A stretch of DNA of 41,220 bases from Lachnospiraceae bacterium (GTDB lineage: Bacteria > Bacillota > Clostridia > Lachnospirales > Lachnospiraceae). The stretch spans positions 1-41,220 of the forward strand of contig JAILBQ010000123.1 in NCBI GenBank assembly GCA_024680815.1, written 5' to 3'. Below the pieces are notes generated by a model, which was not told where the DNA came from, made no database searches, and saw nothing but the letters and a program-made list of their open reading frames with translations. The position numbers and the translations under genes are program-made. Positions 29 through 26,487 of the stretch are shown one piece after another (the first letter of the stretch is position 1; the number at the start of each line of letters is the position of its first letter).

Positions 29-1282
29 ATGGGCGGCAATCTGTTCACGATCCTGACATCGACAATTAAATCAAAGTTTGCTTCGATCGTTGCAAAGGTT
101 CGCCTCTGGACAAGCTGGAGCTTTGTCAAGACCCGGATTATCGGCGGCATCCGGGACTTCTTTGTCAAGCTCATGGACGTCCGTCCGAAGAACAAAAACG
201 ATTACTACACTATCTTCGGATGGATGGTCAGCAAGAAGCTGGCTTATGCGATTATCGTATTTGTAGGAGTAATAAGCCTGTGGTATATTTCCGTGACGAC
301 CCAGGTTTTTTCCAAATTTGCCATGAACGGGGGCTTACGGACCTATGCTTACAATAACGTCCTTCTGCGGCTTGCGAAAAACAGGGTCCGGATAAAGGGA
401 AAATCGGGATACCTGGCCTATGAGGGCGAGGTTGACAAGGGGTTTGTCACCGGGGCCGGAAATCTTTATTCTCCGTCCAAGGTGCTTTTATATTCCGGCG
501 CCTTCTTGAAAAACAAGTATGAGGGCGAGGGTACACAGTACTACGACGACGGAACCATGCACTATACCGGCACCTTCCACGAGAATCTCTATGAGGGCAC
601 GGGAAAGCTCTACCGCCAGGACGGGACTGAGGAATACGAGGGCGAATTCATGCAGGGCCTGAAAGAGGGCCAGGGAGTTCTCTACGACCAGGGCAACAAC
701 AAGCTCTACGAGGGAAGCTTCGCCTCCGATGATATTGTGTACAGCGAGCTTTTGGGGAAAGGGGTCGACGAAATCCGGGCAAAATATCTGGGGCATCAGA
801 CTCTTTACGAATCGGGAGATTTCGGGCAGGGTCAGATGGTGGTGGTGCTTTCGGACATTGACGCCCTTTACCTCAGCGAAAGCGACGACTCCGCCTCCGA
901 CGAGGGAGCGAAGGCAACGGCAGTATATGTGCTTGACGACCGCTTTCGTTCCGGTTCGGCCGTTGCAAAAAACGTCAACGAGCTTAAAAGCATTTTCGGA
1001 GAGCCCTTTTATGAGGGAAATTCAAACGTGATCCTGCCGGAGGCCGTGGCCATCAATATGCTGAATTCCTATAAATATGTTTTAAACGGCAGCGTTACCA
1101 TGGATACCGATATGGTATATTCGGACGATATTGTCGTGAACGATTTTGACCGTGGCTATCAGGTATATATCTATTCCTTCAAGCGCGGCGGACTGGTTTA
1201 TTCCTTTGTCGGCAAGGATAAGGACGGCTATTTTGAATTCTACTATATAACCGAGGGAAGCGAGGAAGAAGATGCGGCTTAA
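29..1282 (+). CDS. Membrane-anchored MORN-repeat protein
   Basis: This 417-residue protein has a basic N-terminal region and one hydrophobic segment at about residues 71-88, then a large C-terminal part. Residues about 130-231 carry several MORN-type repeats of the YEGEF..GxxxGxGxLY kind (for example YEGEFMQGLKEGQGVLYD). MORN repeats in general form beta-hairpin stacks used for lipid or protein contacts. The C-terminal 180 residues are acidic and I do not recognise them. The ATG follows an AACGGAG ribosome site at 15-21. The gene overlaps the next one by 11 bases, so they are probably translationally coupled. Being first in the visible CIS gene string, it is likely an envelope-side partner of the injection machine; that role is inferred from position only. 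Confidence 0.85.
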   Translation: MGGNLFTILTSTIKSKFASIVAKVRLWTSWSFVKTRIIGGIRDFFVKLMDVRPKNKNDYYTIFGWMVSKKLAYAIIVFVGVISLWYISVTTQVFSKFAMNGGLRTYAYNNVLLRLAKNRVRIKGKSGYLAYEGEVDKGFVTGAGNLYSPSKVLLYSGAFLKNKYEGEGTQYYDDGTMHYTGTFHENLYEGTGKLYRQDGTEEYEGEFMQGLKEGQGVLYDQGNNKLYEGSFASDDIVYSELLGKGVDEIRAKYLGHQTLYESGDFGQGQMVVVLSDIDALYLSESDDSASDEGAKATAVYVLDDRFRSGSAVAKNVNELKSIFGEPFYEGNSNVILPEAVAINMLNSYKYVLNGSVTMDTDMVYSDDIVVNDFDRGYQVYIYSFKRGGLVYSFVGKDKDGYFEFYYITEGSEEEDAA

Positions 1283-3302
1283 GGGAAAGCTTACGGCAGT
1301 TCTGCTCTGCCTTTCAATAATCTTTTCCGCCCTTCCCCCTGTCAGGGTTCACGCGGCGGGTAAAAAGCTCACTCTGTCGCTCTGCCGTTCCCTGGCGCTG
1401 GAGCACAGCAAGGAGAGGGATTCGGCGGAGCTTGGCGTGATCCAGAAGACGGCCAAGCGGGAGAGCGCTCTTAAGGCTCTGAAGCTTACGAAAAAGAATC
1501 TGTCGACTTTCCGGTGGATGCCGCTTTTAAGCTTCAAATTTCCCCAGTCCACGAACTTTGCCCAGGAGTCCAAGTTCCAGTTTCAGCCCCTGTCCCTGGC
1601 CAACGATATCCTGGTGGCCCAGCACAAGCTTCAGGACATAGTGTTTTCGGTGGACGAGGCGGTAAACAATCTCTTTGTTGAGATTGTGACTCTCCAGAAA
1701 ACTCTGGATTTTAACCAGAAGAGACTTGACAGCTATTCCGACAGCCTTAAACACAATCAGGCGAAGGTGAAGCGCGGTGAAGCGAACCAGAGCGATGTGG
1801 ACAGGTTACAGAAAAAAGTGGATACGCTGAATAACTCCATCGCCAGCGACCGCCGGACACTGGAAGCGGATTTGAAGAAGCTTTCCGATATGATAGGAAT
1901 GGACGTGACCACGGGCTACACTTTTGAAACGCCCTATGTGGAGGCCAAAATCAACAGGGAAAATCTGGACGCCCTTATGCAGTATACCGAGGATCGGGAT
2001 GAAACCTACTATGAAGCCTGCATGAAGGCCACCTCCGCCCGTATCGAACTCCAGACCAACTACGGGATCATGAATTCGAAATACGGGTCGGACATGAACC
2101 TTATTTCCATGTTTATAAATTCCGCCCTCAACAAGCAGGAGGTAAGCAAAACCGCTTTCTATCAGAAATATAAGGAATTTCTGGATAAGATTGACAGCTA
2201 CTGGAACAAGAGCTTCAAGATTCTTTTTATCAAGATTTCCTTTGAATTCCTGAAGGGAGAGCTGGACGGCACGCGTTATGTGGCGGACGATCCATATACT
2301 CTTTACAACAACGTTCTGGACTATATCCAGGCGTTTAAGGACGAGGACGGGGCGAAAAAGGATCTGGACAGCCAGGTAACCGACGCCTTCAATAATTACA
2401 TTTCCGTGCGGAGCTCCTACGAAAGCTACTCAAAGGATGTGGAGGAGCAGGGGAAGAAGCTGGATGAATACGCGGTTAAAAACAAGATGGGTGAGATGAC
2501 CTTCGAGGAATACCAGGACGAGGTGGATAACTACGAGGAGATTCAGAACAGCATGCTGGACAGCATGAAGCTCTACACCACCACCCTTTATTCCTTTGAC
2601 CGCCTGACCTGCGGCGGCGTAAGCGCCCTGCTTTCGGGAACCGACGCGGATATGCAGACCGCTGTTGTGGGTGAGAGCTTTGTCGAAAAGAGTACCGACA
2701 AGGCCATGTATTACCTGAAGTCCATTATCCAGAAGGAGATGTTCGAGCTGAGCCTCTTTATTCCGGAGGACTTTGATATCGAAATCACGGACTTCGAGTT
2801 ATGGTGCGACGGGCAGCTCATCGGGCAGCGTACTCCGGTTACGGGATCCTTAAGGCATCTTAAGCTGACGAATGAGAACATAAACAAGGCGTTTATAAGA
2901 CTCTATAACGGCGAGAATTTTGTGGATGACTGCATAATCAATCCCAACGAAGAGTCCGGAGAGCTCAACATCGTTACGGCCAATAACGTGAACAAGATAG
3001 AGTCCGGGGAAATCGGTTCCTACGAGACCTCCGTCAGCGACGTAACGGGCCTTGCCTCCCTGGGAATAACCCCGCTGGAGAGCGAGAAGGTGGCCGCTTT
3101 CAGGATTCTTGCCGAGGACGGAACACCCTTGGGCGACGGAAGCAACACTCCGGTGTCGAAGAAGTTTACGCACTTAAGCCTCGTGCCCAACGACCTCGAG
3201 CTTCTTTCAATCGAGTGCTACGACGAAAACGGCGGCCTGATGTACACGGGATATTTTGATACAGCGAACCAGAAGATCAGAAAGAAGGAAACCGGTGAAT
3301 AA
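1272..3302 (+). CDS. Secreted TolC/OEP-like helical protein with beta-rich C-terminus
   Basis: The 676-residue product starts with a clear signal peptide (basic start, hydrophobic core, VHAA near residue 29). Residues about 35-440 are long amphipathic helices with features typical of outer-membrane efflux (TolC-type) proteins: a VKRGEANQSDVDRLQ turn near 166-180 and a helix pair ending in a Tyr-rich LYTTTLYSFDRL stretch. The last 190 residues look beta-rich and unlike TolC. A TolC-like fold is odd in an apparent Gram-positive, so an extracytoplasmic coiled-coil scaffold is more likely than an outer-membrane channel. Start ATG overlaps the upstream MORN gene, and its end overlaps the next gene by 8 bases, making a coupled trio ahead of the CIS genes. 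The family assignment is from motif impression only. Confidence 0.7.
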   Translation: MRLKGKLTAVLLCLSIIFSALPPVRVHAAGKKLTLSLCRSLALEHSKERDSAELGVIQKTAKRESALKALKLTKKNLSTFRWMPLLSFKFPQSTNFAQESKFQFQPLSLANDILVAQHKLQDIVFSVDEAVNNLFVEIVTLQKTLDFNQKRLDSYSDSLKHNQAKVKRGEANQSDVDRLQKKVDTLNNSIASDRRTLEADLKKLSDMIGMDVTTGYTFETPYVEAKINRENLDALMQYTEDRDETYYEACMKATSARIELQTNYGIMNSKYGSDMNLISMFINSALNKQEVSKTAFYQKYKEFLDKIDSYWNKSFKILFIKISFEFLKGELDGTRYVADDPYTLYNNVLDYIQAFKDEDGAKKDLDSQVTDAFNNYISVRSSYESYSKDVEEQGKKLDEYAVKNKMGEMTFEEYQDEVDNYEEIQNSMLDSMKLYTTTLYSFDRLTCGGVSALLSGTDADMQTAVVGESFVEKSTDKAMYYLKSIIQKEMFELSLFIPEDFDIEITDFELWCDGQLIGQRTPVTGSLRHLKLTNENINKAFIRLYNGENFVDDCIINPNEESGELNIVTANNVNKIESGEIGSYETSVSDVTGLASLGITPLESEKVAAFRILAEDGTPLGDGSNTPVSKKFTHLSLVPNDLELLSIECYDENGGLMYTGYFDTANQKIRKKETGE

Positions 3303-6003
3303 AAAGAAGAAGAAAAAAGGCATTTTTTCGCCCAAAAGAATAACCCAGGCCGTAATCCTTCTTACGGTCTCGGCTCTTTTAAGCGTATATCTTAATAAAG
3401 ATGTGGCTCTGGCCCTTTTTAACCCCACGAAGGCCATGCGCTATTCACAGTATGCCGCTTCGCACACGATTCCGAATTCGACCCTCTTTATCGGGACGTA
3501 TTTAATCGTCCTTCAGGGCATGTCGGACCAGATCTACGAAAAAGCCGAGCAGAGCGCCAGCGATTCCAATCAGACCAACCAGTACTATAAATCCGAGCTG
3601 GCCGGAGGCTCCTGGTTTAACGTTACCGATGCCCAGGGCTTAAGCGACATCATCAATACCGGAGAAGTCATTAACGAGGCGGAGCTGGCCGACCTTTACG
3701 TCCAGTATTTCGTCGGGGCCGACGGGTCGGTGACGGATGTTATGACAGGGGATACCGTGAACCCTTTTGATACCCCCAACCCCTACGACCTTTCTAAGCT
3801 TCCGGAGCTCCAGGAGCTCTGGATGCAGTATACAAGCTCAGAAGAGGCCGAGTCCATAACCCAGGAGGAGTATCTTAAGAACAAAAACTCCGAGAACAGC
3901 GGAAACATGCGTTCCGACGTATATAACTATCAGATCATTACCGCTTTTTTCGGACTGGACTTAAGGGACTCGGAAACCGACAAGCTCGATGCCGACCTGG
4001 CACGTCTCTTCGCCTGCTACCAGGCCATGAAAAATGCCGGGGACGATGAGGATGCGGACATTATCTATAACCTGATGGATAAGGTGGATTCCTCGAGGCG
4101 GGCGATTGTCATGGAGAAGCTTGCGACCCTGGACATCAACTGCCTCGGGACACTATACAATCTTTGTAACGGCGAGAACTACACGACCTTCGGGGATTTC
4201 AAGGATTCTTCGGATTCCGAGGATGATATTTCGGAGGAACCGGGATATATCAGAGAGCTGCAGGACGCGGCGAGCCACAGCTTTTCAAAGGACGACAGCT
4301 CCGATGACTGGTGGTCGCCTCTTCAGGAGTCTTATGATGACTATGATCCGGATGACGATGACGCTGAAGAGCCTTCGGATGCCTATAACATTGACAACGG
4401 CCTTTTAACTGCCGTGTCAAACTGCATACAGTCCTGTTCCCAGAGCTACAGCACCTATTCCTCCAAGTCGCTCACCGATGCGGATACGGTGCTGGGACAT
4501 GCGGATTATACCTATTCCGTGCAGGTTACCGAGGAAGCTTCGGCAGACGGTTCCGCGGGTCCCATAAACTACTTAAGGGATGTGGAAAATATAGCCGGAA
4601 ATACCATAAAGCATTCCGACAGCGAGCTTGATCTTCTGGACAGCTCTCTGGTGGGTCTGGCGGAGGGAAAATATCAGAGTGCCGTGACCGCCGGAGCCTC
4701 CAGCGAATACCAGGATGCCATTTCCTCCGGCGACGGGGCAAGCTCCGCCGACAGTATCCTAACGCAGCAGCTGGGGGACACGGAGGCAAAGAGGAGCGAG
4801 CTGGAGTTTTTGATTGACGCGGTAAAACAGAGGGAAAGTTCCGCCGATGCATTGTCTTACGTCAATAACTGTATTGACTGGACCGACAAGCTCTACGGAA
4901 GTATTCCCGGGGATGACTTTTCCGCTGACGCCACGGGCTCGGTGGACAGTCATATGAAGTGGCTCAAAGACCTGGCACAGGCCATCAAGGATTCCGACGA
5001 CAGTCTTAAGGACAAGCTGGATGAGCTGAACGATAAAAAGACCGAGCTTCAGAAAAAGAGGGACGCGGCTCTTGACGATAACGACCTGGCGGGAGCCAGA
5101 GATCTGGACGCCAGCATTGCGGCAGTGGATCAGGATATAGCTGATGAAGAGGCAAATACCGGAAAGAGCTCCACTGATGATCTGGCGGATGATATTCTCA
5201 GTGATGCCCTTTCGAAGATGGCGGACGATCCGGATGCGGATATTTCCGGGGCCCTTGGGGCTCTGGCGGGAATGGGAGCCACGGACGCCCTGGATACTAT
5301 TGCGGACAGGGCGGAGGACAACGGCGCTTCGGCAGCCACCCAGAACGCAATTTCCGACGCGCAGGATGAGGCGGCGGAAAACGCGGGCGGAGGAGCCGGA
5401 GACGGTTCGGGAGACGGTTCGGGAGACGGTTCGGGATCCGGTTCCGGAGCAGCCGGCTTAAGCGAGAGCGAAATACTTGGTCTTCTCGAAGACTTCTTCG
5501 GAAAGAGCATAGACGACCTTAACGCCGCAGAGCTGGCCATTGCGACCGCGGGCACTTCGGAGTTTGCGAGAGCCGGAAACACTCCGGCCGGAAAGCTTGC
5601 CGCCCGTTTTGCGGAGCTGATGCGCTCAAAGAACAATCCGTATCTCTATGAACAGTACCGGGACAAAACGCCGGAATACATAAATTTAAAGACCATCGGC
5701 GAGGTAACGAGCTTCCGTTATTTCTATGACGATACACGGAAGAAAGCCACCATGACCCAGGGAGGGAAGGTTTTCACTATCAGGGCCAGCAACCAGACCA
5801 TTGAGCGGGGCGGAACGCCCGAGAACATGAAATATAAGTCCGTATTCCAGAAATATCCCTATATTTCCGAGGACGACGGGAAAAACTACTTCGGATGTAC
5901 GGCGGAATATGTATCTTCGACAAGCCACGCGGTATGTATTCCGGAAACTATTGAAGCGAAGGTGGATGAACTGTTCGCTCTGCTGAGCGGCGGGGGAGAA
6001 TAA
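3295..6003 (+). CDS. Large single-pass membrane protein of the CIS operon
   Basis: I choose the GTG at 3295, 6 bases after an AAGGA site and overlapping the upstream stop codon, over the in-frame TTG at 3256; this gives 902 residues. A lysine-rich start is followed by one hydrophobic segment (about residues 14-33), so most of the protein should lie outside the cytoplasm. The middle is acidic and helical, with a strong coiled coil near 565-622. A Gly/Ser/Asp linker at about 698-720 (nt 5386-5455) precedes a C-terminal domain of about 180 residues. That domain includes a segment (KKATMTQGGKVFTIRA) reminiscent of copper-amine-oxidase-like stalk domains, a weak resemblance. It is 6 bases before the cap-protein gene. 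A membrane anchor or receptor for the CIS is a plausible role, inferred from topology and context. Confidence 0.75.
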   Translation: MNKKKKKKGIFSPKRITQAVILLTVSALLSVYLNKDVALALFNPTKAMRYSQYAASHTIPNSTLFIGTYLIVLQGMSDQIYEKAEQSASDSNQTNQYYKSELAGGSWFNVTDAQGLSDIINTGEVINEAELADLYVQYFVGADGSVTDVMTGDTVNPFDTPNPYDLSKLPELQELWMQYTSSEEAESITQEEYLKNKNSENSGNMRSDVYNYQIITAFFGLDLRDSETDKLDADLARLFACYQAMKNAGDDEDADIIYNLMDKVDSSRRAIVMEKLATLDINCLGTLYNLCNGENYTTFGDFKDSSDSEDDISEEPGYIRELQDAASHSFSKDDSSDDWWSPLQESYDDYDPDDDDAEEPSDAYNIDNGLLTAVSNCIQSCSQSYSTYSSKSLTDADTVLGHADYTYSVQVTEEASADGSAGPINYLRDVENIAGNTIKHSDSELDLLDSSLVGLAEGKYQSAVTAGASSEYQDAISSGDGASSADSILTQQLGDTEAKRSELEFLIDAVKQRESSADALSYVNNCIDWTDKLYGSIPGDDFSADATGSVDSHMKWLKDLAQAIKDSDDSLKDKLDELNDKKTELQKKRDAALDDNDLAGARDLDASIAAVDQDIADEEANTGKSSTDDLADDILSDALSKMADDPDADISGALGALAGMGATDALDTIADRAEDNGASAATQNAISDAQDEAAENAGGGAGDGSGDGSGDGSGSGSGAAGLSESEILGLLEDFFGKSIDDLNAAELAIATAGTSEFARAGNTPAGKLAARFAELMRSKNNPYLYEQYRDKTPEYINLKTIGEVTSFRYFYDDTRKKATMTQGGKVFTIRASNQTIERGGTPENMKYKSVFQKYPYISEDDGKNYFGCTAEYVSSTSHAVCIPETIEAKVDELFALLSGGGE

Positions 6004-6009
6004 CGAAAA

Positions 6010-6600
6010 ATGGCAGATTATCCTATTATAGCGGATGTCAGTAATTATCTGGTGAAGGTGATGAGGGAAAAGATGTGTCCGGAGCCTATTCCGTCTCCGA
6101 ACAACATCGAGATTTCCTCTCCCCTGGATCAGGATGTGGACTACATTGTGGGCATATATCTCTACGACATTGTGGAAGACGTCCAGGTTACGACCCCGAG
6201 GCTTATTGAACGGGGCCGGGCCGAGCTGGCCAAGCCGCCCAGACCATATGCGCTACATTATATGGTCTTTATAAACGGCTCCTCCCAGATGGGATTAAAG
6301 GCGCCGGATATACAGAAAATCATCGGACGAGCCGCGCAGATCGTCAATGACAACAACTCCGTGCGGCCCGATGAGCTGCAGTCCTGGCTGGACACCAACG
6401 AACCTCCGATAGTACTGTCTCAGGCGAAGATAAGTCTGGAGGAAAAGGTAAGGGTGTGGCAGGCGATCAACAAGCCATATCAGATCAGTCTGTTCTACAA
6501 GGCGGCGCCCGTGTACCTGTCAAGCGGCGATATTCTTGAAACACCGCGTGTTGTGGATGCTCAGTTCGGATTGCATATTACAGGCGAGAGCGCAGAATGA
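6010..6600 (+). CDS. DUF4255 / Pvc16-like CIS cap (tail terminator) protein
   Basis: This 196-residue protein matches the DUF4255 (Pvc16 N-terminal) pattern: an N-terminal IADVSNYLVKVMRE helix, the SSPLD..VDYIVGIYLYDI strand, and the RPYALHYMVFING segment. In Photorhabdus virulence cassettes and related particles this family caps the end of the sheath-tube and stops its growth. A GGGGGAG site lies about 9 bases before the ATG. Its placement directly before the tip, sheath and tube genes fits the role. Length is typical of the short form of the family. Assignment to the cap is family knowledge; nothing here shows the stoichiometry or partner directly. Confidence 0.85.
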   Translation: MADYPIIADVSNYLVKVMREKMCPEPIPSPNNIEISSPLDQDVDYIVGIYLYDIVEDVQVTTPRLIERGRAELAKPPRPYALHYMVFINGSSQMGLKAPDIQKIIGRAAQIVNDNNSVRPDELQSWLDTNEPPIVLSQAKISLEEKVRVWQAINKPYQISLFYKAAPVYLSSGDILETPRVVDAQFGLHITGESAE

Positions 6601-6617
6601 AAGGAGGGAAGAATTAA

Positions 6618-7427
6618 GTGGAAGCTTCTGTTTTTGGATGTAGGCTGGATCTTCTTGTAAGACTCTACGATACCACAACGGGAGCGGCAGTAAATGAGAA
6701 CGCTATTATTTTCAGGAAAAACGATCAGATTATCAGGCCGGAGATGAGAGGGATCGGCACCTATGTATTCATCAATACGGGCAGAGAAAACTTTCTCATG
6801 CATATTAAGGTCAACGGTTTTGAGGAATATGAAACAGAGGTGGACTACGAAACCCTGGACAGTCATCTGCCGGCGCTGGATGTGTTCCTGATGCCATCAG
6901 AGAACACATTTGACGGAGAACGGTTTTTCAGTTTCTCAGGTACTCTTCCTTTTCTTGAAGCGATCGAAGCGGTAAACCTGAGCCGCCCCGTATGTATGGC
7001 AAACAGCTATGATTTAAAGAAAAACGAGCTAAGCTTTTTCGGGGTAAACGGCGGAAGAGTCCGTATGGACAGCGTCTGGTACGGTTTGCTGCGAGCAGAC
7101 AAAACAGGTTATGAAAAATTAGAGGTGAAAGCAAATGTGACACCTTCGTCTGTGAAGCTCGGGAATCCGCTGAAGGAAGAAGTGACATCGAATCTGCCGG
7201 TTATGAGGATCCTTATAGGAAGGGTCGGAGAAGACGGGACATATCTCCTGCGCGCCAGAAACGACGGCGGCGGACAGGTTTATCTTGTGCGCTTCATCGT
7301 GGACGGCAGGGAAATGTTTCAGACGGTGGATATGAATGCGCCGGAGCAGCTGCATGTTTGCGAGGCGCAGGCGGAAACAGTGATTGAAAATGATGATGCG
7401 CTTGCAGCAGAAGGGAGTAAGGTTTGA
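6618..7427 (+). CDS. Beta-sandwich (carboxypeptidase-regulatory-like) CIS-operon protein
   Basis: A GTG start at 6618 is set by a full AAGGAGG site at 6601-6607. The 269-residue product has no signal peptide or membrane segment. Residues about 5-90 (LLVRLYDTTTGAAVNENAII, GIGTYVFINTG) look like a carboxypeptidase-regulatory or prealbumin-like beta-sandwich, and the rest also appears beta-rich. I do not recognise a specific CIS family. Its stop overlaps the TTG start of the PAAR-like gene, so the two are probably made together. A structural accessory near the spike tip, or an adaptor, is a guess from this coupling. Confidence 0.7.
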   Translation: MEASVFGCRLDLLVRLYDTTTGAAVNENAIIFRKNDQIIRPEMRGIGTYVFINTGRENFLMHIKVNGFEEYETEVDYETLDSHLPALDVFLMPSENTFDGERFFSFSGTLPFLEAIEAVNLSRPVCMANSYDLKKNELSFFGVNGGRVRMDSVWYGLLRADKTGYEKLEVKANVTPSSVKLGNPLKEEVTSNLPVMRILIGRVGEDGTYLLRARNDGGGQVYLVRFIVDGREMFQTVDMNAPEQLHVCEAQAETVIENDDALAAEGSKV

Positions 7428-7813: not shown

Positions 7814-7847
7814 CATTTCATTCTACAGAAAGGAAAAGAAGAGAAAT

Positions 7848-9545: not shown

Positions 9546-9585
9546 AACGTAAAGACGAGACTACAGAAAGGAAAGGATTTAAATT

Positions 9586-10086
9586 ATGGCAGCAGATACC
9601 TATACTAACGGAGCGGGTTCATACTATCCGTTAACGAAGATGAATTTCCTGGTCACCGTCGCTACGATTTCCGGAACCGCAGCATTCAGCGAGGTGACAG
9701 GAGTAGAAGGAAGTGTTGATGTTATTGAGTTCCGTCAGGGCAATTCGGGGTCACTGGCTCCGGTAAAGATCCCGGGACTCGTTAAGCATGGAAATGTTAC
9801 TCTGAGGATGGGATATATTCTGGACAGCCCCTTCAAGACATGGATTCAGGAGTGCGTATCTGAAACCAGAGGCCAGATGCCCCGGTATGATGTGACAATA
9901 GAATTGATCGATATCAACCCGGCGGCACCGAACCAGACGGTGGAGACCACTCAGGGCACCAGAATCTGGACCTTAACAAACGCCTGGGTGGCGAAGTACA
10001 ACGCCCCCGATCTGGACGCCAAGACCTCTGATGTGGCAATTGAAAGCGTAGAGCTGGCCTATGAGGAGCTGGTGATACCGAACTAA
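9586..10086 (+). CDS. Inner tube protein (gp19 / Hcp-like family)
   Basis: This 166-residue protein fits the phage T4 gp19-like tube family used in CIS particles: FLVTVATISGTAAFSEVTGV near the start, VIEFRQGN, and a GNVTLRMGYILDSPFKTWI strand-helix unit. These subunits stack as hexamers inside the sheath and form the conduit pushed into the target. A GGAAAGGA site precedes the ATG. The gene is followed by a strong hairpin at 10106-10135 that could set the sheath-tube segment apart from the less abundant baseplate parts. A second, very different gp19-like domain is encoded at 10773. Confidence 0.96.
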   Translation: MAADTYTNGAGSYYPLTKMNFLVTVATISGTAAFSEVTGVEGSVDVIEFRQGNSGSLAPVKIPGLVKHGNVTLRMGYILDSPFKTWIQECVSETRGQMPRYDVTIELIDINPAAPNQTVETTQGTRIWTLTNAWVAKYNAPDLDAKTSDVAIESVELAYEELVIPN

Positions 10087-16797: not shown

Positions 16798-16800
16798 GCC

Positions 16801-18000: not shown

Positions 18001-18009
18001 AGGAAAAGC

Positions 18010-18936: not shown

Positions 18937-18955
18937 CTTTTTTTCAGGAGAAGAA

Positions 18956-19426
18956 ATGGCGGATAATGCGTTTTTAGGGACGGGGATGAAGTTTCCTCCG
19001 CAGATTGACAAGGCAACCGGACGCTTTGTCACGGTTTCCGGCAACCAGACCGTGAAGGAATCCATATATCTTATATTGATGACCCAGAAGACGGAGCGGC
19101 TGGCTCGTCCGGATTTCGGCAGCGAAATCATGAGCTACACTTTTATGGATACCGGGGTCACGATGCTGTCCATCATGCGGCGGAGTCTTACCCAGACAAT
19201 ACTTGCCCAGGAGCCGAGAATTTCCGATGTCGACGTGACAACCGAGTTTCACGACAGGGAGGGCATGATACTGATTAATATAGCTTATACCGTGGCCGCC
19301 ACAAATACCAGGGACAATCTGGTCTTCCCCTTCTATCTCAATTCCGGCGAGCTGCCGGAGGAGACGGTGGAGGAGGACTTTATCATGCCGGATGAAGGGC
19401 CTGGAACTCCGTATATGGATGAATAA
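18956..19426 (+). CDS. Baseplate wedge protein, gp25-like
   Basis: This 156-residue protein fits the T4 gp25/GPW (Pvc9) family: KESIYLILMTQKTERLARPD, FGSEIMSYTFMD, and the EPRISDVDVTTEFHDREG segment. gp25-like proteins connect the first sheath ring to the baseplate through an added handshake strand. The conserved family core is complete. An AGGAGAAG site lies directly before the ATG. Gene order hub, spike, gp25, baseplate J matches eCIS clusters. Confidence 0.93.
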   Translation: MADNAFLGTGMKFPPQIDKATGRFVTVSGNQTVKESIYLILMTQKTERLARPDFGSEIMSYTFMDTGVTMLSIMRRSLTQTILAQEPRISDVDVTTEFHDREGMILINIAYTVAATNTRDNLVFPFYLNSGELPEETVEEDFIMPDEGPGTPYMDE

Positions 19427-19427
19427 A

Positions 19428-19502: not shown

Positions 19503-19521
19503 AAAAGACGAGGAAACCAAC

Positions 19522-22500
19522 GTGAAGATCGACAACCGACTTGCAGCAGATATCGAAGAACAGATTGCCTCTCTGGCCGGAAAGTATGCGCCGGAATGGA
19601 ACTTCGACAGGAATAATCCGGATATCGGCGGCGTTATAGCCAAAATCTTTGCCGGTCAGATGAAGGAAAACATCGATCTTGTGAACAGCGTGATTGAGCG
19701 CTATCACGCGGAATTTATCAACATGCTGGATCTTTCCTTAAAACCGGCCAAGCCCGCGGGCAGTATTGTCCGCTTCCGGCTTGTGGACGGTCCGGTTCCT
19801 GGCAGCAGGATACGTAAGGGTACGAGACTTCTTGCCGACAGAACCACCGCCGAGGGAGAGGCAATCGTCTTTGAAACTGACCGGGAGATATATGCCACAA
19901 ACGCCCGTATAGTAAACGCTTTCATGACAGACAGGGAGGACAGCCGCATAACTCCGCTGCTGGGCTCTATCGCCATCCCGGAGATCGTAAGCTCCGGTAT
20001 GCTCCCCGAGGAAGAAGGAGGGACTGAAGAGGAAGAGCTTCCTGCCTATGCCACGGCAGCCTCTATCCGGCCCTTCACACTGTTTTCGGAGGGGGAAAAC
20101 GTAGCTCAGAATGTACTTATCCTGTATCATTCTTCCATCTTCGATATTGAAAACGAGCCCATCTACATCCGCATTTCCGGCAATCCGGATCTGAATGAAA
20201 AAATTCTTGCGGGGGACTATGTATTCCGCTATTACACCGATGACGGCTTTGTGCCTTTCCTTTCCATGAAGCTTCTGGAGGATAAAGAGACCTTCTGTCT
20301 TGTGAAGGACAGGGAAAACAAGAAGGTTCTGGACGGCGGAAAGGAGACCGCGGTAGTAACCCTTTCCACGGAAGAGCCCGTCACGGAGGAAACGGACGTT
20401 ACCTCCATTTCCCTTTCCTCCCAGGGACACGAAAGGGGAGCGGATTATGCCAATGACGGCGCAAATGATTTAAACCCGGAGAATTTCGCGCCCTTTGGGG
20501 AAGAGCTTCTGGTTTATAATGAATGCTATATCGGCCAGGATCTGTATTTTTCCAAGGGCGGGGCCAGAATCACCATATCCTTCCGCACCTCCTTTAAAGA
20601 GCGGGGGCTTTACCTCACAAAGCAGGAGGAAGAGGTAGAGCTGAAAATCGTCAAGAAAAAACCGAAAATTGCGGCCGGTACTGATCCGGCCCATGCATAT
20701 ACCGACGAAATATCTCTTGAATACTTCAACGGGCTGGGCTGGAAAAAGCTGCCCTGTGACCAGGAGGTGAGCGGCCTTTTCGCGACGGATATTGCCGCGG
20801 AGCACACCATTACCTTCCTGTGTCCCGAGGACTGGCGCCCTACGGAAACCGGGGCCTACAGCGGAAGGTGTCTGCGGCTGCGCCTGATGAAGTCGGACAA
20901 TTGCTACTTAAGACCCGCCGTTCACCATTATCCCGTGATTGCCGGTTTTCAGGTGTCCTTTTCCTACGGAGAGCATTTTGCAGCTCCTGAGAAGCTCTTT
21001 ATGATCTCCGGTACGGAAAAGAGGGATATTACGGTTTCTTCCCGGAAAACCAGGTCTTTCAGCGTGTTCAGTTCGGGGAAATATACGGATGACGCTTTGT
21101 ACCTGGGCTTTGACAGGAAGCTGGAGAGCGGTCCGGTGAGCCTCTACTTTGAGCTGGACGATGTTCTCAACCAGAGTCCTCTTAAATGCGTGTTTGAATA
21201 TTTCTCGCTCCAGGGCTTCAAGCAGCTCAGGGTTCTGGATTATACCTATGATTTTTCCCGCTCGGGCACGGTGCTTTTTGTTCCGCCTGCGGATTTCCAT
21301 GAAACAGAGCTGGAGGGGAGAAGACGCTTCTGGCTTCGAATACGCCGCAAGCATATTCAGGAACTGGAAGAAAAACGGATGTTCCTGCCGCGTATCCGCA
21401 GGATTTTAACAAATGTGGTAACCGTATCCAACACCATAACCTCTCCCGAGGAGGATTATTATCTGGATGAAGCTGTCCAGAACATGCATTTCCCTCTCCA
21501 TGCGGAGAATATTCTGGACGCCGAGGTCTGGGTCAATGAAAAAGGCAGCATTTCCCAGGAGGAAATCGAGGATTACGAGGCGAACCGCCCTGATGAAATC
21601 AGGGAGGAGTTTGACAGGATGGAGAGGCTGACCGCGGTCTATATCCTCTGGAAAGAGACGGACAGCTTTTTTAAAACAAAGGGTGACCGCAGGGTATACC
21701 TGATAGACAGACAGATGCGGGAAATCCACTTTTCGGACGGTATTGCGGCCGATTATCCGAAAGTTCTCGATGACGTGGGCTTCAAGGTCCGGATTCGCAC
21801 CAGCAACGGAGAGGACGGTAATGTTCCGGAGGACAGTATTAACGAAACCGAGGGGGCGGAGCTTTTCATAGACACGGTGACAAATCCGGTCAGGGCCTAC
21901 GGCGGCAGCGATATGGAAACCCTGGATCAGGCCTTAAGGCGGGGAGCCAATGTCATGTACGGCAGAAACCGCCTGGTTTCGGCTAAGGATTATGTGTTTA
22001 CGATTCTGAATTTTTCCTCCAGCATTGACAAGGCCGCCTGTATTCCCGGGCGCACCATAGACGGGAAGGAGAATCCCGCGGACATTTCCTTTGTGCTTCT
22101 CATGAAGGATTTCGCGGACGGCTCCACCTCCTTCCACAGAATTGCGGGGGTACTTAAAAACCATTTGCTGGAAAGCTCCTGTATAGCCGTTTCGGCGGAA
22201 CGCATCCACATTGTGGAGCCGATTTTTGTTTCCCTTACGGTGAATGTCTGGGCAGAGGTGGCAAACCTGGATGAGAGCTTTGAAATTCAGAGTCTGATAG
22301 GAAAGACGCTGACGGAGTATTTAAATCCCGTATCTGCCCCCGAGCATTCCGGCTGGGGAATCGGGACAATGCCGAAGCAGTCGCAGATTATGATGAAGCT
22401 GGGGACGCTCAAGGGACATGCCGCAATACGGAAGCTTGCCATGGTTGTAAAGTTTGCCGATCAGGACGGAGAGCATGAAATGGATCTTTCCGACCTTAAG

Positions 22501-22560
22501 ACCACGCCGTTTATGGTGGTGCGTTCGGGAGAGCATCATGTATATATCAACTACAGGTAA
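19522..22560 (+). CDS. Baseplate protein J family, Pvc11-like
   Basis: This is the largest CIS protein here (1012 residues). Its N-terminus (ADIEEQIASLAGKYAPEWNF, NNPDIGGVIAKIFAGQ, MLDLSLKPAKPAGSIVRFRL) matches the Pvc11/Afp11 baseplate family. The C-terminal third holds a baseplate-J-like core, with NPVRAYGGSDMETLDQALRR and GANVMYGRNRLVSAKDYVF. It would form a wedge subunit with the following Pvc12-like protein. The central 400 residues are variable beta-rich domains. The start is GTG at 19522 after a GAGGAAA site. No frameshift or truncation is visible. Confidence 0.9.
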   Translation: MKIDNRLAADIEEQIASLAGKYAPEWNFDRNNPDIGGVIAKIFAGQMKENIDLVNSVIERYHAEFINMLDLSLKPAKPAGSIVRFRLVDGPVPGSRIRKGTRLLADRTTAEGEAIVFETDREIYATNARIVNAFMTDREDSRITPLLGSIAIPEIVSSGMLPEEEGGTEEEELPAYATAASIRPFTLFSEGENVAQNVLILYHSSIFDIENEPIYIRISGNPDLNEKILAGDYVFRYYTDDGFVPFLSMKLLEDKETFCLVKDRENKKVLDGGKETAVVTLSTEEPVTEETDVTSISLSSQGHERGADYANDGANDLNPENFAPFGEELLVYNECYIGQDLYFSKGGARITISFRTSFKERGLYLTKQEEEVELKIVKKKPKIAAGTDPAHAYTDEISLEYFNGLGWKKLPCDQEVSGLFATDIAAEHTITFLCPEDWRPTETGAYSGRCLRLRLMKSDNCYLRPAVHHYPVIAGFQVSFSYGEHFAAPEKLFMISGTEKRDITVSSRKTRSFSVFSSGKYTDDALYLGFDRKLESGPVSLYFELDDVLNQSPLKCVFEYFSLQGFKQLRVLDYTYDFSRSGTVLFVPPADFHETELEGRRRFWLRIRRKHIQELEEKRMFLPRIRRILTNVVTVSNTITSPEEDYYLDEAVQNMHFPLHAENILDAEVWVNEKGSISQEEIEDYEANRPDEIREEFDRMERLTAVYILWKETDSFFKTKGDRRVYLIDRQMREIHFSDGIAADYPKVLDDVGFKVRIRTSNGEDGNVPEDSINETEGAELFIDTVTNPVRAYGGSDMETLDQALRRGANVMYGRNRLVSAKDYVFTILNFSSSIDKAACIPGRTIDGKENPADISFVLLMKDFADGSTSFHRIAGVLKNHLLESSCIAVSAERIHIVEPIFVSLTVNVWAEVANLDESFEIQSLIGKTLTEYLNPVSAPEHSGWGIGTMPKQSQIMMKLGTLKGHAAIRKLAMVVKFADQDGEHEMDLSDLKTTPFMVVRSGEHHVYINYR

Positions 22561-22575
22561 TCGGGGGTTTTAAAC

Positions 22576-24672
22576 GTGCTTAGAATTCAGGAGGCTGTAA
22601 GCAGAACCTTTAACGATCGGCTGGCGGATGTCTATACCGATCTGCCGACTCTTACCCGGGAATGGACGAATTATAACCCGTCCGACCCCGGAATCACGAT
22701 TCTGGAAAATCTGACCCTCTTTGAAACCCTTCAGGGTTTTCGGGCAAACGCCTTAAGCGCCAGGGCGGAGCGGATGCTTTTAAAGATGGCGGGCTTTGAA
22801 CCGAAGAGAGGGAAGTGCGCGAGACTCCTTCTTTCCGCGGAGGGGTTAAGACATCCGGCACTGCTTCCCAACGGCCAGCGCTTTATCCTCGGAGACCTTG
22901 TATTTGAAACCCGCAAACAGATTTTAGTGGGAGACTGTCATCTTACGGGAATATATTCCCGCGTCGGGGATGAATATCACAATTTAAGCTTCCTTCTGGA
23001 CAGGGAGTACCGTGTGCCCGGGAAGGCTTTCGGCGACAAACCGAAGGAGGGGGACGCCATATATTTTATCGCGGACGCTCTGCCGGAGGCCGGAAAGGAT
23101 ACCTCCTTCTATATCGAAATTGACGCCGTCAACAACCGGAACAGCGTGGAAAACCGGGGTGAAAACATCTTTGCGGCCCTTAAATGGGAATGCTATACCT
23201 CTGCGGGCTTTGAGGAAATGAAGGTAAAGGATTATACCGGGGCCTTTCTCTACAGCGGGGAAATCAAGCTTAAAATGCCGGATACGGAGGCGGTGCTTTT
23301 TACAGAGGGACCGGAAAAGGGATACTGCATCCGCGCCACCCTCACCCGGGCGAGCTATGATATCCGGCCAAGACTCTATCAGGTGGATGCGTTTCTTTTT
23401 GAGGTATGGCAGAAAAATACCCGTTCCATCTGCCACACCTATCAGAAAAACAGGACAATAAGAATAACGAGTCCCATTGAAAACGAGGGCTATATTCTGG
23501 TGTTCGGCAAGGAGGAGAAGGGTTCGAGTTACCGCCGCTACGAGCTTGCCGTCACCACCGGTCAGGAGGGCAGATACTGCCTTTATGAGCGGGGAGAGAA
23601 CGGTAATTTTTCCCTGACCTTCGACCGGGATATTTTCGGATTTGAACCGGAGAGACATAAGGACGCCGTCAGGGTTGTGATTTACAGCGAGGAAATCATG
23701 AGGCGTTACCGTGTGGGAGAGGTTCTGGGCTATGACGACCAGGAGCTGGAGCTTCCGGTTTCACGGATCGTACCGGAATCCTTCTGCCTGATAGCGAAAC
23801 GTTTGGATGAGAACGGAGTGCCTTTTTATGATTTTGTCAGGCCGGAAAAGGATGGAGAGGACGCCCTCTTTTATCACCTGCTTGAAAACGATGGAAAGAT
23901 CGTTATAGAGGATGCCGGAGCCTTTATCGGAGCGGAGCTTTTTATGGGAGGCTGCGCGGTTACGGAAGGACCCAAGGGGAATATCCGGGCGCTCAACCAC
24001 CTCCGTGCTCCCGGTTTTGAGGACTCCGCGGATTTCATTAATCCGGCGGAGGGTACGGGAGGGGTGTTCAGGGAGACTCTTAAAGAGACGAGAGAGCGCT
24101 TCAGGGAGGATGTCTACACGCCCTATACCTGTGTGACCGAAGAGGATTATGAGCGCCTGACGGCTTCAACCCCGGGACTGTGTATCCGCAAAACAAGGGC
24201 GAATATGAATGAAATGGAAAATATAGTTCATATCGCCGTGCTTCCCGGTACGGACGAGGAGTTTCCGAAGCTCTCCGAAGCATACCGCAAAGCCATAGAG
24301 GAGAGGCTTGACGAGCGCAGGCTTATCAATACGCGGTTTCAGATTCTTTCCCCGGTCTATGTCGGGGTTTCGGTTCGTGCCACCGTATATATCAAGCGCC
24401 ATTACAGCGACTGCAGGGAGAAGATAGAGGAACGTTTCCGGAGCATGATCCGCTATGCCGATTCCGAAAAGAATTTCGGGGAGGTGCTGCAGTTCGAGGA
24501 GGTTTTTCGGGCCGTGGAGGAGCTTGACTGTGTTGAATTCATCTACGAGCTTGCCATGCGGCCGGAAAACGGAAAATATGCAACTCTTAAGAATTCCAAC
24601 ATCCATCCTGCGGAAAACGCCCTGCTGTATCCGGGCAATATAGATCTGGAACTTATCACCTACGAGAAGTGA
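22576..24672 (+). CDS. Baseplate protein J family, Pvc12-like
   Basis: The 698-residue product carries the Pvc12/Afp12 N-terminal motif (FNDRLADVYTDLPTLTREWT, NYNPSDPGITILENLTLF, ANALSARAERMLLKMAGFEP). Near residue 510 it has the YTPYTCVTEEDYERLTASTP J-type segment, followed by two alpha-beta modules (VHIAVLPGTDEEFPKLSEAY; VRATVYIKRHYSDCREKIEE). It should pair with the Pvc11-like protein to build baseplate wedges. GTG at 22576 lies 9 bases after GGGGG. It ends 7 bases before the gpI-like gene. Confidence 0.9.
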   Translation: MLRIQEAVSRTFNDRLADVYTDLPTLTREWTNYNPSDPGITILENLTLFETLQGFRANALSARAERMLLKMAGFEPKRGKCARLLLSAEGLRHPALLPNGQRFILGDLVFETRKQILVGDCHLTGIYSRVGDEYHNLSFLLDREYRVPGKAFGDKPKEGDAIYFIADALPEAGKDTSFYIEIDAVNNRNSVENRGENIFAALKWECYTSAGFEEMKVKDYTGAFLYSGEIKLKMPDTEAVLFTEGPEKGYCIRATLTRASYDIRPRLYQVDAFLFEVWQKNTRSICHTYQKNRTIRITSPIENEGYILVFGKEEKGSSYRRYELAVTTGQEGRYCLYERGENGNFSLTFDRDIFGFEPERHKDAVRVVIYSEEIMRRYRVGEVLGYDDQELELPVSRIVPESFCLIAKRLDENGVPFYDFVRPEKDGEDALFYHLLENDGKIVIEDAGAFIGAELFMGGCAVTEGPKGNIRALNHLRAPGFEDSADFINPAEGTGGVFRETLKETRERFREDVYTPYTCVTEEDYERLTASTPGLCIRKTRANMNEMENIVHIAVLPGTDEEFPKLSEAYRKAIEERLDERRLINTRFQILSPVYVGVSVRATVYIKRHYSDCREKIEERFRSMIRYADSEKNFGEVLQFEEVFRAVEELDCVEFIYELAMRPENGKYATLKNSNIHPAENALLYPGNIDLELITYEK

Positions 24673-24679
24673 GGAAGAA

Positions 24680-25777
24680 ATGCCGAAATATTCGATCAGA
24701 AAAAACCGGCTGAAAGCCGGATATATGGAAGGCCTCAGAACGGAAGGGGAAAGCGGTATTGTTTTCGAGCCTAAATCCCATTACCATGCCCTGTTCCTTA
24801 AAGCGCTTGACGGTGCGGAGACGGGGGCCGAATGGGGCAGGTTTTCACTGACGGCGAGGTGCTCGGAGGATATCGTCTACAGCGTTCATTTTTTGGCCAC
24901 GGATTTAAGGGATTTTTCACAGGCGGACTTTGACGGAACATTGGATGAATTTTTCACCAGCCCCGAAATTCCGGTTCCGGAAAAGCTGAGTGTGTTAAAA
25001 AATCTCGGCGCGAAAAGAACAGTGGGGGGAGATGACTGCCTGCTTTACGATTTAAGCGGCCGTTATCTCTATATTGCCCTGGAGGTAGCCGGTGAAGGCA
25101 CCGGGTATTTTGAAGGTCTGAATGTTGACAGCATCGGCGATAATTTCATGAATACCTTCCCCGAGATTTACAGGCAGCGGGGTGGCTTCTTCCATCGTTT
25201 CATGTCTGTTTTTTCAAGTGTTTATAACGATTTTGAGGAGGAGATAGCAGCTCTTCCGGAAAACCTGGACCTGAATACCTGCTCCAGGGAGCTGCTTATC
25301 GCCTATGGTTCATGGATGGGCATAGATTTAAGCGGGGACTTTCTGGAAGAGGCACACCTCAGAACTCTGGTTAAGGAGGCCTATCAGCTTAACCGGATGA
25401 AGGGAAGCAGGAAAGCCATAGAGCGGATTCTGGAGATCCTGCTGGAGGAAAAGCCCACTCTTATCGAGCATAACCGTCTTCGGGAGCGAACGGGTTCAGC
25501 TTTGCAGGGGTCGCTTCCCAAGGGCTTCCGCGAGCGCGGAAACTACGATATAACGGTGCTTGTTAAAAAATGTCTTACCGAAGAACTCAGACACAAGCTC
25601 TTTTTTGTACTGGATCAGTTCAAACCCGTGCGGACGGTGATTCATCTTGTTCAGCTTGACGACTATGTTGTCATGGATTCCAACAGCTATCTGGATCTGA
25701 ACGCAAGGATTCCGGAGGAGAGGAACGCGGTTCTGGACGAAGGCACCGGCCTGGACGGCGTTATCACCCTGGTATGA
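24680..25777 (+). CDS. Phage tail protein I (gpI)-like baseplate protein
   Basis: Residues about 150-275 of this 365-residue protein match the P2 gpI-type domain: NTFPEIYRQRGGFFHRFMSV, an EEIAALPENLDLNTC helix, ELLIAYGSWMGIDLSGDF, and KGSRKAIERILEILLEEKPT. In phages gpI completes the baseplate wedge and attaches fibres. The N-terminal 140 residues are a separate beta-rich region (TGAEWGRFSLTARCSEDIVY). No tail-fibre gene follows, so the N-terminal region could serve as the outward-facing part; that is a guess. Its stop overlaps the ATPase start in an ATGA arrangement, which implies coupling. Confidence 0.85.
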   Translation: MPKYSIRKNRLKAGYMEGLRTEGESGIVFEPKSHYHALFLKALDGAETGAEWGRFSLTARCSEDIVYSVHFLATDLRDFSQADFDGTLDEFFTSPEIPVPEKLSVLKNLGAKRTVGGDDCLLYDLSGRYLYIALEVAGEGTGYFEGLNVDSIGDNFMNTFPEIYRQRGGFFHRFMSVFSSVYNDFEEEIAALPENLDLNTCSRELLIAYGSWMGIDLSGDFLEEAHLRTLVKEAYQLNRMKGSRKAIERILEILLEEKPTLIEHNRLRERTGSALQGSLPKGFRERGNYDITVLVKKCLTEELRHKLFFVLDQFKPVRTVIHLVQLDDYVVMDSNSYLDLNARIPEERNAVLDEGTGLDGVITLV

Positions 25778-26487
25778 TAGAATTTTCTCATGTGGGAAAA
25801 AGCTACGGTGACCTTACCGTTTTCCGGGATTTCAATGAGCGGATCGAGGACGGGGAGCTTGTTATAATAACGGGAAAAAGCGGCAGCGGGAAAACCACCA
25901 TTATGAATCTGCTGCTTAAGGAGATCGAACCGGACACGGGAAAGATTTATTTAAAGCGCCGCTGCCTTTCCGATGTGAAGACTTCCGAGATTCCGTTTTA
26001 CAGACGGGATATAGGGGTGGTTTTTCAGGATTTCAAGCTTTTCGATGACCGTACGGTCTACGGAAACCTGGAGGTTGTCAGGAACCTGACAGGAGGAAAC
26101 AGGAAAGAAACGGAACGCAGGATTACCAGCGTTTTAACCATGATGGGGATAGACAGGCTCCATAAGAGGCGGCCCAAAGAGCTCTCCGGAGGAGAGAAGC
26201 AGAAGGTGTGCATGGCAAGGGCCATAATAAACAATCCCGCCGTGCTTCTGGCGGACGAACCCACCGGAAATCTGGATCCGGAGTCCTCCGCGGAGGTGAT
26301 GAAGCTCCTGGAGCTCATACACAGGCAGGGAACCACGATTCTCCTTGCCACCCATGATTTCAAAACGGCTGAGTCGCTCCTGTCCCGCGGAAGAAGAATA
26401 GATCTTGATCAGCGAAGCTCCTCGGGATATTCCTCCTCGGGGATTTCCGTGAGGGAGAGGAACTCGTTGGAGCAATATCCGACATGA
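25774..26487 (+). CDS. FtsE-like ABC transporter ATPase in the CIS operon
   Basis: All ABC motifs are present in the 237 residues: Walker A GKSGSGKT (34-41), Q-loop Q85 in VVFQDFKLFDD, signature LSGGEKQK (137-144), Walker B VLLADEPTG (157-165) and switch His194. The overall pattern is closest to FtsE/LolD-type ATPases. No FtsX-like permease or other membrane partner is encoded nearby. The coding sequence starts inside the preceding baseplate gene (ATGA), tying it to the CIS operon. FtsE with FtsX controls cell-wall hydrolases, so a link to wall opening or envelope docking is possible but inferred. The last 24 residues are low-complexity and lie over the 3' end of the opposing SH3b gene. Confidence 0.9.
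   Translation: MIEFSHVGKSYGDLTVFRDFNERIEDGELVIITGKSGSGKTTIMNLLLKEIEPDTGKIYLKRRCLSDVKTSEIPFYRRDIGVVFQDFKLFDDRTVYGNLEVVRNLTGGNRKETERRITSVLTMMGIDRLHKRRPKELSGGEKQKVCMARAIINNPAVLLADEPTGNLDPESSAEVMKLLELIHRQGTTILLATHDFKTAESLLSRGRRIDLDQRSSSGYSSSGISVRERNSLEQYPT

Follow-up and report, generated by a model that had tools for sequence, protein, structure and literature searches.

Several contractile injection systems (CIS) attached to a membrane have been described: the thylakoid CIS through Cis13 (PMC8894136), the archaeal type VI secretion system (T6SS) with Hbor_38620 and Cis11/12/13 (PMC11566945), the T6SS-iv (PMC12210884), and the Streptomyces CIS with CisA (PMC12237407); here and below, statements on published systems refer to the portions of these papers that were available. 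In this work, we analyze a CIS locus on contig C119 of a Lachnospiraceae genome (2.86 Mb in 145 contigs, 92.9% complete), and the whole contig of 41,220 nt is called the window. Its CIS genes (6010–26487) are complete and are preceded by genes in overlapping frames for a MORN-repeat protein, a TolC-like protein, and a 902-residue protein (902-type), which, together with two genes named g281 and g819 that lie next to a Cis13-like gene on another contig, make up what we call the envelope module. We interpret the locus, with a confidence slightly better than even, as a membrane-anchored CIS with its own trans-envelope complex in monoderm Clostridia. What can be seen directly is which genes are present and in which order, that they are associated with the CIS, that one kinase-like domain lacks the catalytic motifs searched for, which topologies are predicted, and that in one relative the TolC-like and 902-type proteins are fused.

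The initial annotation of this DNA held that known extracellular CIS (eCIS) lack such anchors. This holds only in part, since membrane attachment has been published for the thylakoid, archaeal, T6SS-iv, and Streptomyces systems; what stands is that the available portions of those papers show no counterpart, in a monoderm, of a module built from several proteins and including secreted parts. No description of a CIS with such a module was found in the literature searched, with most subscription papers, bioRxiv, and supplements lying outside the search; two surveys mention Firmicutes or Gram-positives, in their available parts without this module (PMC8213781, PMC12210884). Membrane-attached CIS are already known, and this envelope module is new in the literature searched, a prior description being possible.

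The haloarchaeal T6SS of Halogeometricum borinquense is membrane-attached and serves contact-dependent killing, and its nearest Cis11 relatives are reported to be from Bacillota (PMC11566945). Two Cis11-like genes occur both in the window (TIGR02243, below cut-off) and in Haloferax larsenii (L105), whereas the putative archaeal anchor is one protein with six transmembrane segments (TMs), unlike the module described here (PMC11566945). The Streptomyces CIS shares with our locus a Gram-positive host and a CIS-encoded membrane protein, CisA, which is needed for firing, but CisA is one bitopic adaptor, and the particles there are cytoplasmic and self-killing (PMC12237407, PMC10066040). In the thylakoid-anchored CIS (PMC8894136), membrane attachment is by the baseplate-side protein Cis13, a relative of which is encoded in our block; there Cis13 has a TM of its own, whereas the Cis13-like protein of the genome studied has none over the threshold and the next gene, g281, supplies one. 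The T6SS-iv of Amoebophilus also has eCIS-like genes and is used in a cell-anchored manner, but its anchor is Aasi_0556 (PMC12210884). Unlike the window, the Haloferax stretch has no TolC-like, MORN, 902-type, g281, or g819 matches, and the Streptomyces locus (L109) carries no module family. Amoebophilus is, besides, a diderm host. With the TolC/OEP family (PF02321) the likeness lies in a passed gathering score and in a profile that meets TolC chains over a helical stretch; the differences are the lack of Omp85 in the genome, which speaks indirectly against a seat in an outer membrane, and, by eye, hairpins that are short and a C-terminal region that the family does not have.

Envelope Genes in the Window

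The three envelope genes of the window are as follows (TMs by hydropathy).

29..1282, plus strand: MORN-repeat protein, 417 amino acids (aa); PF02493, 1.2e-8; one TM at residues 71–89
1272..3302, plus strand: TolC-like secreted helical protein, 676 aa; PF02321 OEP, 1.5e-7, 31.9 bits against a cut-off of 22
3295..6003, plus strand: 902-aa single-pass protein (902-type), GTG start; one TM at residues 16–34

As the initial annotation had noticed, the three genes overlap (spacings of -11 and -8 nt) and lead into the CIS genes at +6 nt. From 29 to 26487, all genes run in the same direction with overlaps or short gaps; the spacings from the MORN gene to the FtsE-like gene are -11, -8, 6, 17, -4, 34, 40, 93, 230, 11, 29, 18, 3, 9, 19, 95, 15, 7, and -4 nt, and the longest gap, 230 nt, lies 5' of a repeat-tailed tube-like gene. 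By the TolC-like protein, the nearest named relatives (L003–L006) are all Lachnospiraceae, one of them labelled goat rumen; L005, Lachnospiraceae bacterium AD3010, is presumed to be an isolate. The same gene order is found in L003–L005, in L006 up to its contig end, and in other genera, and for this reason we do not attribute the arrangement to chance. The earlier view of the host as probably Gram-positive fits the family of these four relatives and the search for Omp85 (PF01103), which gave no match in the 92.9% complete genome, with the control matching in 7 of 14 genomes. The proposed block of three envelope genes is present, but it is not limited to three genes and continues upstream on contig C86.

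Domains were called with Pfam, in 30 window proteins, and with NCBIfam, several NCBIfam matches being below the curated score, and TMs and topologies were predicted from hydropathy against a threshold. The MORN protein is predicted to have a basic N-terminus inside and its repeats and C-terminal domain outside. A single TM is predicted in 26/26 homologues, and the gene is present in the CIS stretches of 22 of the 25 family genomes that carry the CIS marker Pvc16_N, the remaining three being cut by contig ends or breaks. In the TolC-like protein, an N-terminal hydrophobic signal is followed by OEP-type helices with two short putative hairpins (by eye) and by a C-terminal beta region taken from a low-confidence model; the hydrophobic stretch recurs in 17 of 19 rows, and one of the two exceptions is truncated at its start. 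Searched against the PDB, the TolC-like profile meets TolC-family chains (E 0.0012–0.0069 over ~85 residues).

The 902-type protein is predicted to be N-in/C-out, with a conserved domain at ~47–278, a coiled coil, a Gly-rich linker, and a consensus Cys in the C-terminal part; its N-terminal TM with a positive flank is kept in 18 of 21 rows, the exceptions being a fragment, the second copy in G180, and the fusion. No family rose above its cut-off for this protein in the Pfam/NCBIfam-type scans, its profile met unrelated, mostly engineered PDB chains, mainly over the Gly-rich stretch (best 7.2e-6), and single-protein PDB searches returned nothing useful. Judged from sequence, the predicted topologies fit an envelope complex. 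In G180 (L045:11278-17421), two tandem 902-type genes (907 and 1139 aa) lie 3' of one TolC-like gene.

TolC-like proteins are export ducts, and the TolC-like/902-type pair might instead serve solely to export effectors, adhesins, or a large surface protein, working alongside the CIS and not as its passage. The FtsE-like ATPase that closes the operon and the large surface-type protein encoded upstream would suit such a path; among the proteins scanned, however, Pfam recognized no membrane-fusion adaptor and no permease partner, and we consider it quite improbable.

Association of the Module with CIS across Genomes

The samples comprised 299 family genomes (298 genera) and 391 class genomes, with g281 searched in 230 family genomes; the TolC-like, 902-type, and g281 families (at class level, the TolC-like family) were compared with Pvc16_N, which occurs in 25/299 family and 15/391 class genomes. 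Strong TolC-like (E<=2.2e-81) and strong 902-type (E<=4.7e-38) matches were found in the same 14/299 family genomes, all within the 25 with Pvc16_N, and the TolC-like gene was on the Pvc16_N contig, within 20 kb, in 13 of these 14 (in G208 it is on another contig). At class level, TolC-like matches at E<=6.3e-21 occurred in 5/391 genomes (four strong; G626 moderate, 6.3e-21), all among the 15 with Pvc16_N. The g281 family was strong in 20/230 family genomes, all with Pvc16_N, 7 of the 20 not being in the profile. The hypergeometric values, 1.2e-17 for the family and 4e-8 for the class, ignore shared descent and overstate independence because the genomes share ancestry.

Since the profiles were seeded from CIS loci (rows from 11/14 genomes for the TolC-like and 12/14 for the 902-type family), the informative part of this result is that new matches were also in Pvc16_N genomes, with no strong match elsewhere. 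The non-seed matches were in G104, G208, and G242 for the TolC-like family, in G208 and G242 for the 902-type family, and in G516, G454, and G626 at class level. Weak partial matches (E 2.7e-9 to 1e-3) were not counted (5/19 TolC-like, 5/19 902-type, 8/13 class TolC-like, and 20/40 g281 genomes); one weak 902-type match is in the Pvc16_N genome G106, on a different contig. The coupling of the envelope genes to the CIS proposed in the initial annotation is thus borne out for the TolC-like and 902-type genes, while the MORN gene was outside the genome-wide test. Nor do strong homologues of these two genes occur mostly away from CIS clusters, in the 299 family genomes or, for the TolC-like gene, in the 391 class genomes.

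This distribution bears on the possibility that the machine is a conventional released eCIS and the envelope block a separate adhesion or efflux operon merely adjoining it. In its favor, Pvc16, CIS_tube, and the winged-helix AAA among the core genes are typical of eCIS, and 11 of the 25 Pvc16_N family genomes are without strong TolC-like and 902-type matches. On the other side, every strong homologue found with the CIS-seeded profiles was in a Pvc16_N genome, the gene order is conserved across two families of one order, and Pfam matched no holin or endolysin in the 30 window proteins scanned. We regard a released particle as improbable here.

Upstream Genes on Contig C86

In L005, the MORN gene is preceded by a gene whose homologue in the genome studied lies on C86, a contig of 7713 bases whose last 9 bases are the first 9 of the window; from this overlap and the L005 synteny, we infer that the two contigs join. 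C86 holds the end of a large surface-type protein gene, two further genes, and the Cis13-like, g281, and g819 genes. The two further genes were read by eye as a response regulator and sensor kinase pair; in the genome studied, this two-component-like pair separates the large surface-type gene (L073:3-782) from the Cis13-like gene. In L005, the very large surface-type protein encoded directly 5' of the Cis13-like gene (L005:430-3525) has a membrane helix at its C-terminus and a weak Ig-like match (E 0.031).

The Cis13-like and g281 genes share a 4-nt overlap. Against CIS13_fam NF053767, the L005 Cis13-like protein reaches 94 bits (E 1.1e-26, best stretch residues 8–155), short of the curated score of 370, and is a relative, not a full member, of that family. 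Maximum hydropathy of the Cis13-like protein in the genome studied is 1.14, with no TM over the threshold; 4/25 homologues are marginally >1.6.

The g281 protein starts with a domain of ~230 residues, and close to its C-terminus one TM is predicted in 23/23 rows. In 9/23 homologues a second hydrophobic stretch (~108–131) is over the threshold; we take this stretch for a helix buried within the kinase-like domain, a second membrane helix being possible. Compared with 11 Ser/Thr kinases (11 of 12 kinase loci were used), the domain gave an HH probability of 89% (E 2.1e-6), against <=0.2% for four unrelated control profiles, and the g281 profile meets PAK1 chains in the PDB at 2e-4. The HRD-type and DFG motifs are absent from the searched stretches of 19/19 members, and on sequence grounds g281 is most likely a pseudokinase. 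A match to DUF2207_C, below cut-off in 9/19 members (best 5.6e-5), is in our reading due to the hydrophobic C-terminal half. EssB/YukC of the type VIIb secretion system also has a cytoplasmic pseudokinase domain followed by one TM, but the 19 g281 members gave no match to its Pfam family (PF10140, E up to 1). Since the YukC model had no match above cut-off in 61 relatives (one weak), kinases were used for the comparison instead of EssB.

Four TMs are predicted for g819 in 17/26 rows; HAMP was found in 2/12 members (best 9.1e-8) and a nucleotide cyclase domain in one (0.0015), and its profile gave nothing useful against the PDB. From these matches g819 is a possible, weakly supported candidate for a degenerate signalling enzyme.

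The same genes bring in the main rival to our interpretation, a CisA-like trigger for cytoplasmic particles: as in Streptomyces, particles would lie in the cytoplasm and be recruited to the inner membrane face by a membrane module acting as sensor or trigger, leading to self-killing with nothing fired out. In Streptomyces, such self-killing takes place within a multicellular life cycle. CisA is required for firing yet is outside the particle (PMC12237407), and g281, g819, and a nearby kinase-like protein resemble signalling parts, as do the two C86 genes read as a two-component pair. However, CisA is a single bitopic protein, whereas several proteins with large predicted extracytoplasmic or secreted parts are found here, and recruiting particles from inside needs no secreted TolC-like protein. 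We hold this mode of action to be rather unlikely for the locus.

Gene Order, Fusion, and Outgroups

In clade A (e.g., G041, G129, G174, G080, G516, and also G454 of another family), the order is Cis13-g281-g819-MORN-TolC-902-Pvc16-g5-DUF4280-sheath. In clade B (e.g., G016, G022, G196), a MORN protein, mostly longer, is encoded directly 5' of Pvc16, and neither a TolC-like nor a 902-type protein was matched strongly in the genome. A third family is represented by G626, which carries TolC-like and g819 genes as well as a MORN gene, the last on the opposite strand; its TolC-like gene adjoins one for a protein of 1133 aa that matches the 902-type family weakly (2.8e-6, two-sequence scan). G558 and G610 carry MORN and g819.

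The G242 fusion (1558 aa) has a TolC-like part at 23–670 and then the 902-type domain at 703–923, and the 902 TM is absent, which places the fused partner on the secreted side. At the level of sequence, the fusion supports the N-in/C-out topology of the 902-type protein and suggests that the TolC-like and 902-type proteins work together. The C-terminus of the fused protein (L033:13083-17756) was read by eye and presumably resembles a copper-amine-oxidase N-terminal-type domain of Firmicutes surface proteins.

Eight outgroup CIS loci were compared: Haloferax, Paenibacillus, Deinococcus, Nostoc, Streptomyces, and Roseomonas (L105–L110) and two from Clostridia (G431, G493). In the stretches examined, these loci match core CIS families, but at E<=1e-3 none of the eight (0/8) matches MORN, TolC-like, 902-type, g281, or g819. 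The class genomes with Pvc16_N G323, G495, G535, G586, and G655 were left out, their genus being represented by G431, which is without the module. A sheath tree of 29 rows unites the 22 loci that carry the module in a single clade (100/100), the outgroup branches being long. Given this clade and outgroups without the module, the latter is best read, on sequence evidence, as an addition in one Clostridia CIS lineage. TolC-bearing loci are not monophyletic in the tree, in which G626 is basal, and their distribution calls for losses or for repeated gain.

Between the window and L005, G041, and G516, identity is 78–90% for the sheath, tube, and cap and 41–63% for the MORN, TolC-like, and 902-type proteins where aligned in full; for the hub, spike, Cis11-like, and Cis12-like proteins it is 41–54% in G041 and G516 (the G516 hub over half its length). 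Baseplate and envelope parts therefore diverge at comparable rates, which would be expected if they touch and is no proof that they do.

Proposed Mechanism

With no Omp85 in the genome there is no evident use for an outer-membrane channel, and the TolC-like protein is now most likely a wall-side part. In the membrane-anchored machine we propose, the baseplate (two Cis11-like, Cis12-like, and Cis13-like proteins) would dock at the inner membrane face on g281 and g819, which may act as a gating pair; the MORN, 902-type, and secreted TolC-like proteins would build an outer part through the peptidoglycan, outside which the large surface protein would sit. A signal would then cause the sheath to contract and drive the tube outward, as in the archaeal T6SS. 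The complex, the docking of the baseplate, the passage through the wall, and the outward direction of firing are what we infer from the gene content. A bolder version, which we offer tentatively and think doubtful, is Gram-positive contact-dependent contractile secretion in which the tube is fired through the wall. The 902-type protein and an OEP-type helical protein no longer tied to an outer membrane would together make a collar in the wall, firing would be gated at the membrane by a pseudokinase and its degenerate cyclase-like partner, and the system would be the T6SS equivalent of monoderm gut bacteria.

Several observations weigh against a trans-envelope machine. A CIS tube would not fit through a barrel of the TolC type, which is too narrow, and the barrel as a literal bore was rejected on this ground. 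Besides TolC, the TolC-like protein matches Herpes_UL6 (6.3e-4), MakA (0.0097), and tropomyosin (0.056), and a coiled coil may help its OEP match. AlphaFold2 models of the TolC-like protein and the 902-type domain (5 rows each) had predicted local distance difference test values of 44.8 and 37.9 and were both unusable. Since 11 of the 25 Pvc16_N family genomes have no strong TolC-like and 902-type matches, the machine in general does not depend on these two proteins. Because of the CIS-locus seeding and the few candidates scored per genome (<=3 for the TolC-like and 902-type families, <=10 for g281), distant homologues away from CIS could be missed. In G085 and G104, Cis13-g281-MORN-TolC-902 precedes the sheath, but Pvc16 and AAA lie after the tail genes. 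The likeness to the archaeal T6SS is not specific, since the Nostoc (L108) and Paenibacillus (L106) loci also have two Cis11-like genes, and in the sheath tree, with its long branches, Haloferax pairs with Paenibacillus (93/88) and not with the clade of the window. Finally, the CIS of Streptomyces, a Gram-positive, act inside their own cell, according to the parts of the reports available (PMC12237407, PMC10066040).

The module is present in 14 genera of the family sample and in L005 (AD3010). That genes for membrane and cell-surface proteins accompany the CIS suggests that the machine may be fixed at a thick wall and perhaps fires through it; if true, this would add a contact device to Clostridia of the gut and rumen. 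The TolC-like/902-type fusion and the pseudokinase are markers for finding the module elsewhere.

CIS Core and Downstream Genes

The CIS genes that follow the envelope genes are listed below.

6010..6600, plus strand: Pvc16-like cap/terminator (DUF4255); PF14065 Pvc16_N, 1.2e-25
6618..7427, plus strand: g5, 269 aa, conserved CIS companion between the cap and tip genes; synteny, HMM match also in Paenibacillus L106
7424..7813, plus strand: PAAR-like tip (DUF4280); PF14107, 5.5e-31
7848..9545, plus strand: contractile sheath; PF04984, 1.9e-18, and PF17482, 1.9e-15
9586..10086, plus strand: inner tube; PF06841 (gp19), 3.7e-28; TIGR02241, 1.5e-26; CIS5_fam, 3.9e-18, below its cut-off
10180..10542, plus strand: g9, small conserved CIS protein, 120 aa; 89% identity in L003–L005, matched in 5/8 outgroup loci
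10773..12800, plus strand: second tube-like protein with a long repetitive tail, 675 aa; weak CIS5_fam, 1.4e-3; tandem repeat 11947–12153
12812..14896, plus strand: g11, charged helical protein of variable length; by position
14926..15804, plus strand: CIS_tube-family tube/baseplate adaptor 1; PF19266, 7.8e-20
15823..16797, plus strand: CIS_tube-family tube/baseplate adaptor 2; PF19266, 9.1e-16
16801..18000, plus strand: hub, VgrG/gpD-like; NF033848 VgrG_rel, 2.6e-7, below its cut-off
18010..18936, plus strand: spike, OB domain; PF04717 Phage_base_V, 1e-13
18956..19426, plus strand: gp25-like sheath initiator/wedge; PF04965, 1.7e-17
19522..22560, plus strand: baseplate protein, first Cis11-like, 1012 aa; TIGR02243, 1.6e-23, below its cut-off
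22576..24672, plus strand: baseplate protein, second Cis11-like, 698 aa; TIGR02243, 4.7e-26, below its cut-off; PF04865 Baseplate_J, 5.3e-6
24680..25777, plus strand: Cis12-like wedge, tail protein I domain; Tail_P2_I, 6.6e-7; CIS12_fam, 3e-18, below its cut-off; TIGR02242, 3.2e-17

Sheath, tube, spike, gp25, and baseplate genes are clustered, as in phage-tail-like CIS, and the Pvc16 cap, the CIS_tube adaptors, and the AAA+ ATPase with a winged helix are those of the eCIS lineage. The set of a canonical T6SS (TssJLM, TssBC sheath, TssK) is not found: Pfam matched no TssL/TssM/TssK-type domain in the 30 window and four L005 upstream proteins, and the sheath is Phage_sheath_1, the sole PF04984 match in the genome. 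The spike and gp25 match VgrG and TssE models weakly, below cut-off, which reflects tail parts in common. A prophage was rejected, with no viral relative and no capsid match among the 30 window proteins; in viral contigs, 35 pattern matches yielded no relative of the TolC-like profile.

As to individual genes, a gene annotated as carboxypeptidase-regulatory-like adjoins the DUF4255 gene in the Nostoc and Roseomonas loci (compare g5). The second tube-like family spans about 143 to 675 aa across CIS loci, and its repeat tail could be a lumen filler or a cargo binder. The position of g11 would fit a tape measure.

Downstream of the Cis12-like gene, we found the following.

25774..26487, plus strand: FtsE-like ABC ATPase; TIGR02673, 1.6e-66, 224 bits against a cut-off of 265
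26409..27065, minus strand: SH3-domain single-TM protein; PF08239, 7.3e-7; relatives near CIS in G041 and G080
27071..27970, minus strand: membrane histidine-kinase-like protein with only ATPase-type Pfam domains; PF02518, 1.1e-20; near CIS in G041, G080, G129, and G180
28092..28355, plus strand: g23, 87 aa; between FtsE and AAA in G516
28380..30767, plus strand: AAA+ ATPase with a winged-helix domain; PF00004, 1.9e-28, and PF22977, 1.7e-6; 75% identity in G516

The FtsE-like gene overlaps the Cis12-like gene, the last of the CIS genes, by 4 nt; it adjoins the CIS in G041, G080, G129, and G516, and none was seen in the G149 and G180 stretches. An FtsX-type partner was not recognized in the scan of the window proteins. 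In other bacteria, wall hydrolases are controlled by FtsEX, and by analogy the FtsE-like ATPase could help to open the wall. We take the AAA+ ATPase to be Cis15/Pvc15-like. A 750-aa acidic protein at 30802–33054 has no Pfam family over cut-off, and a 688-aa protein at 37830–39896 has a weak match to a cyclic nucleotide (cNMP)-binding domain; both large proteins are possible cargo or regulators.

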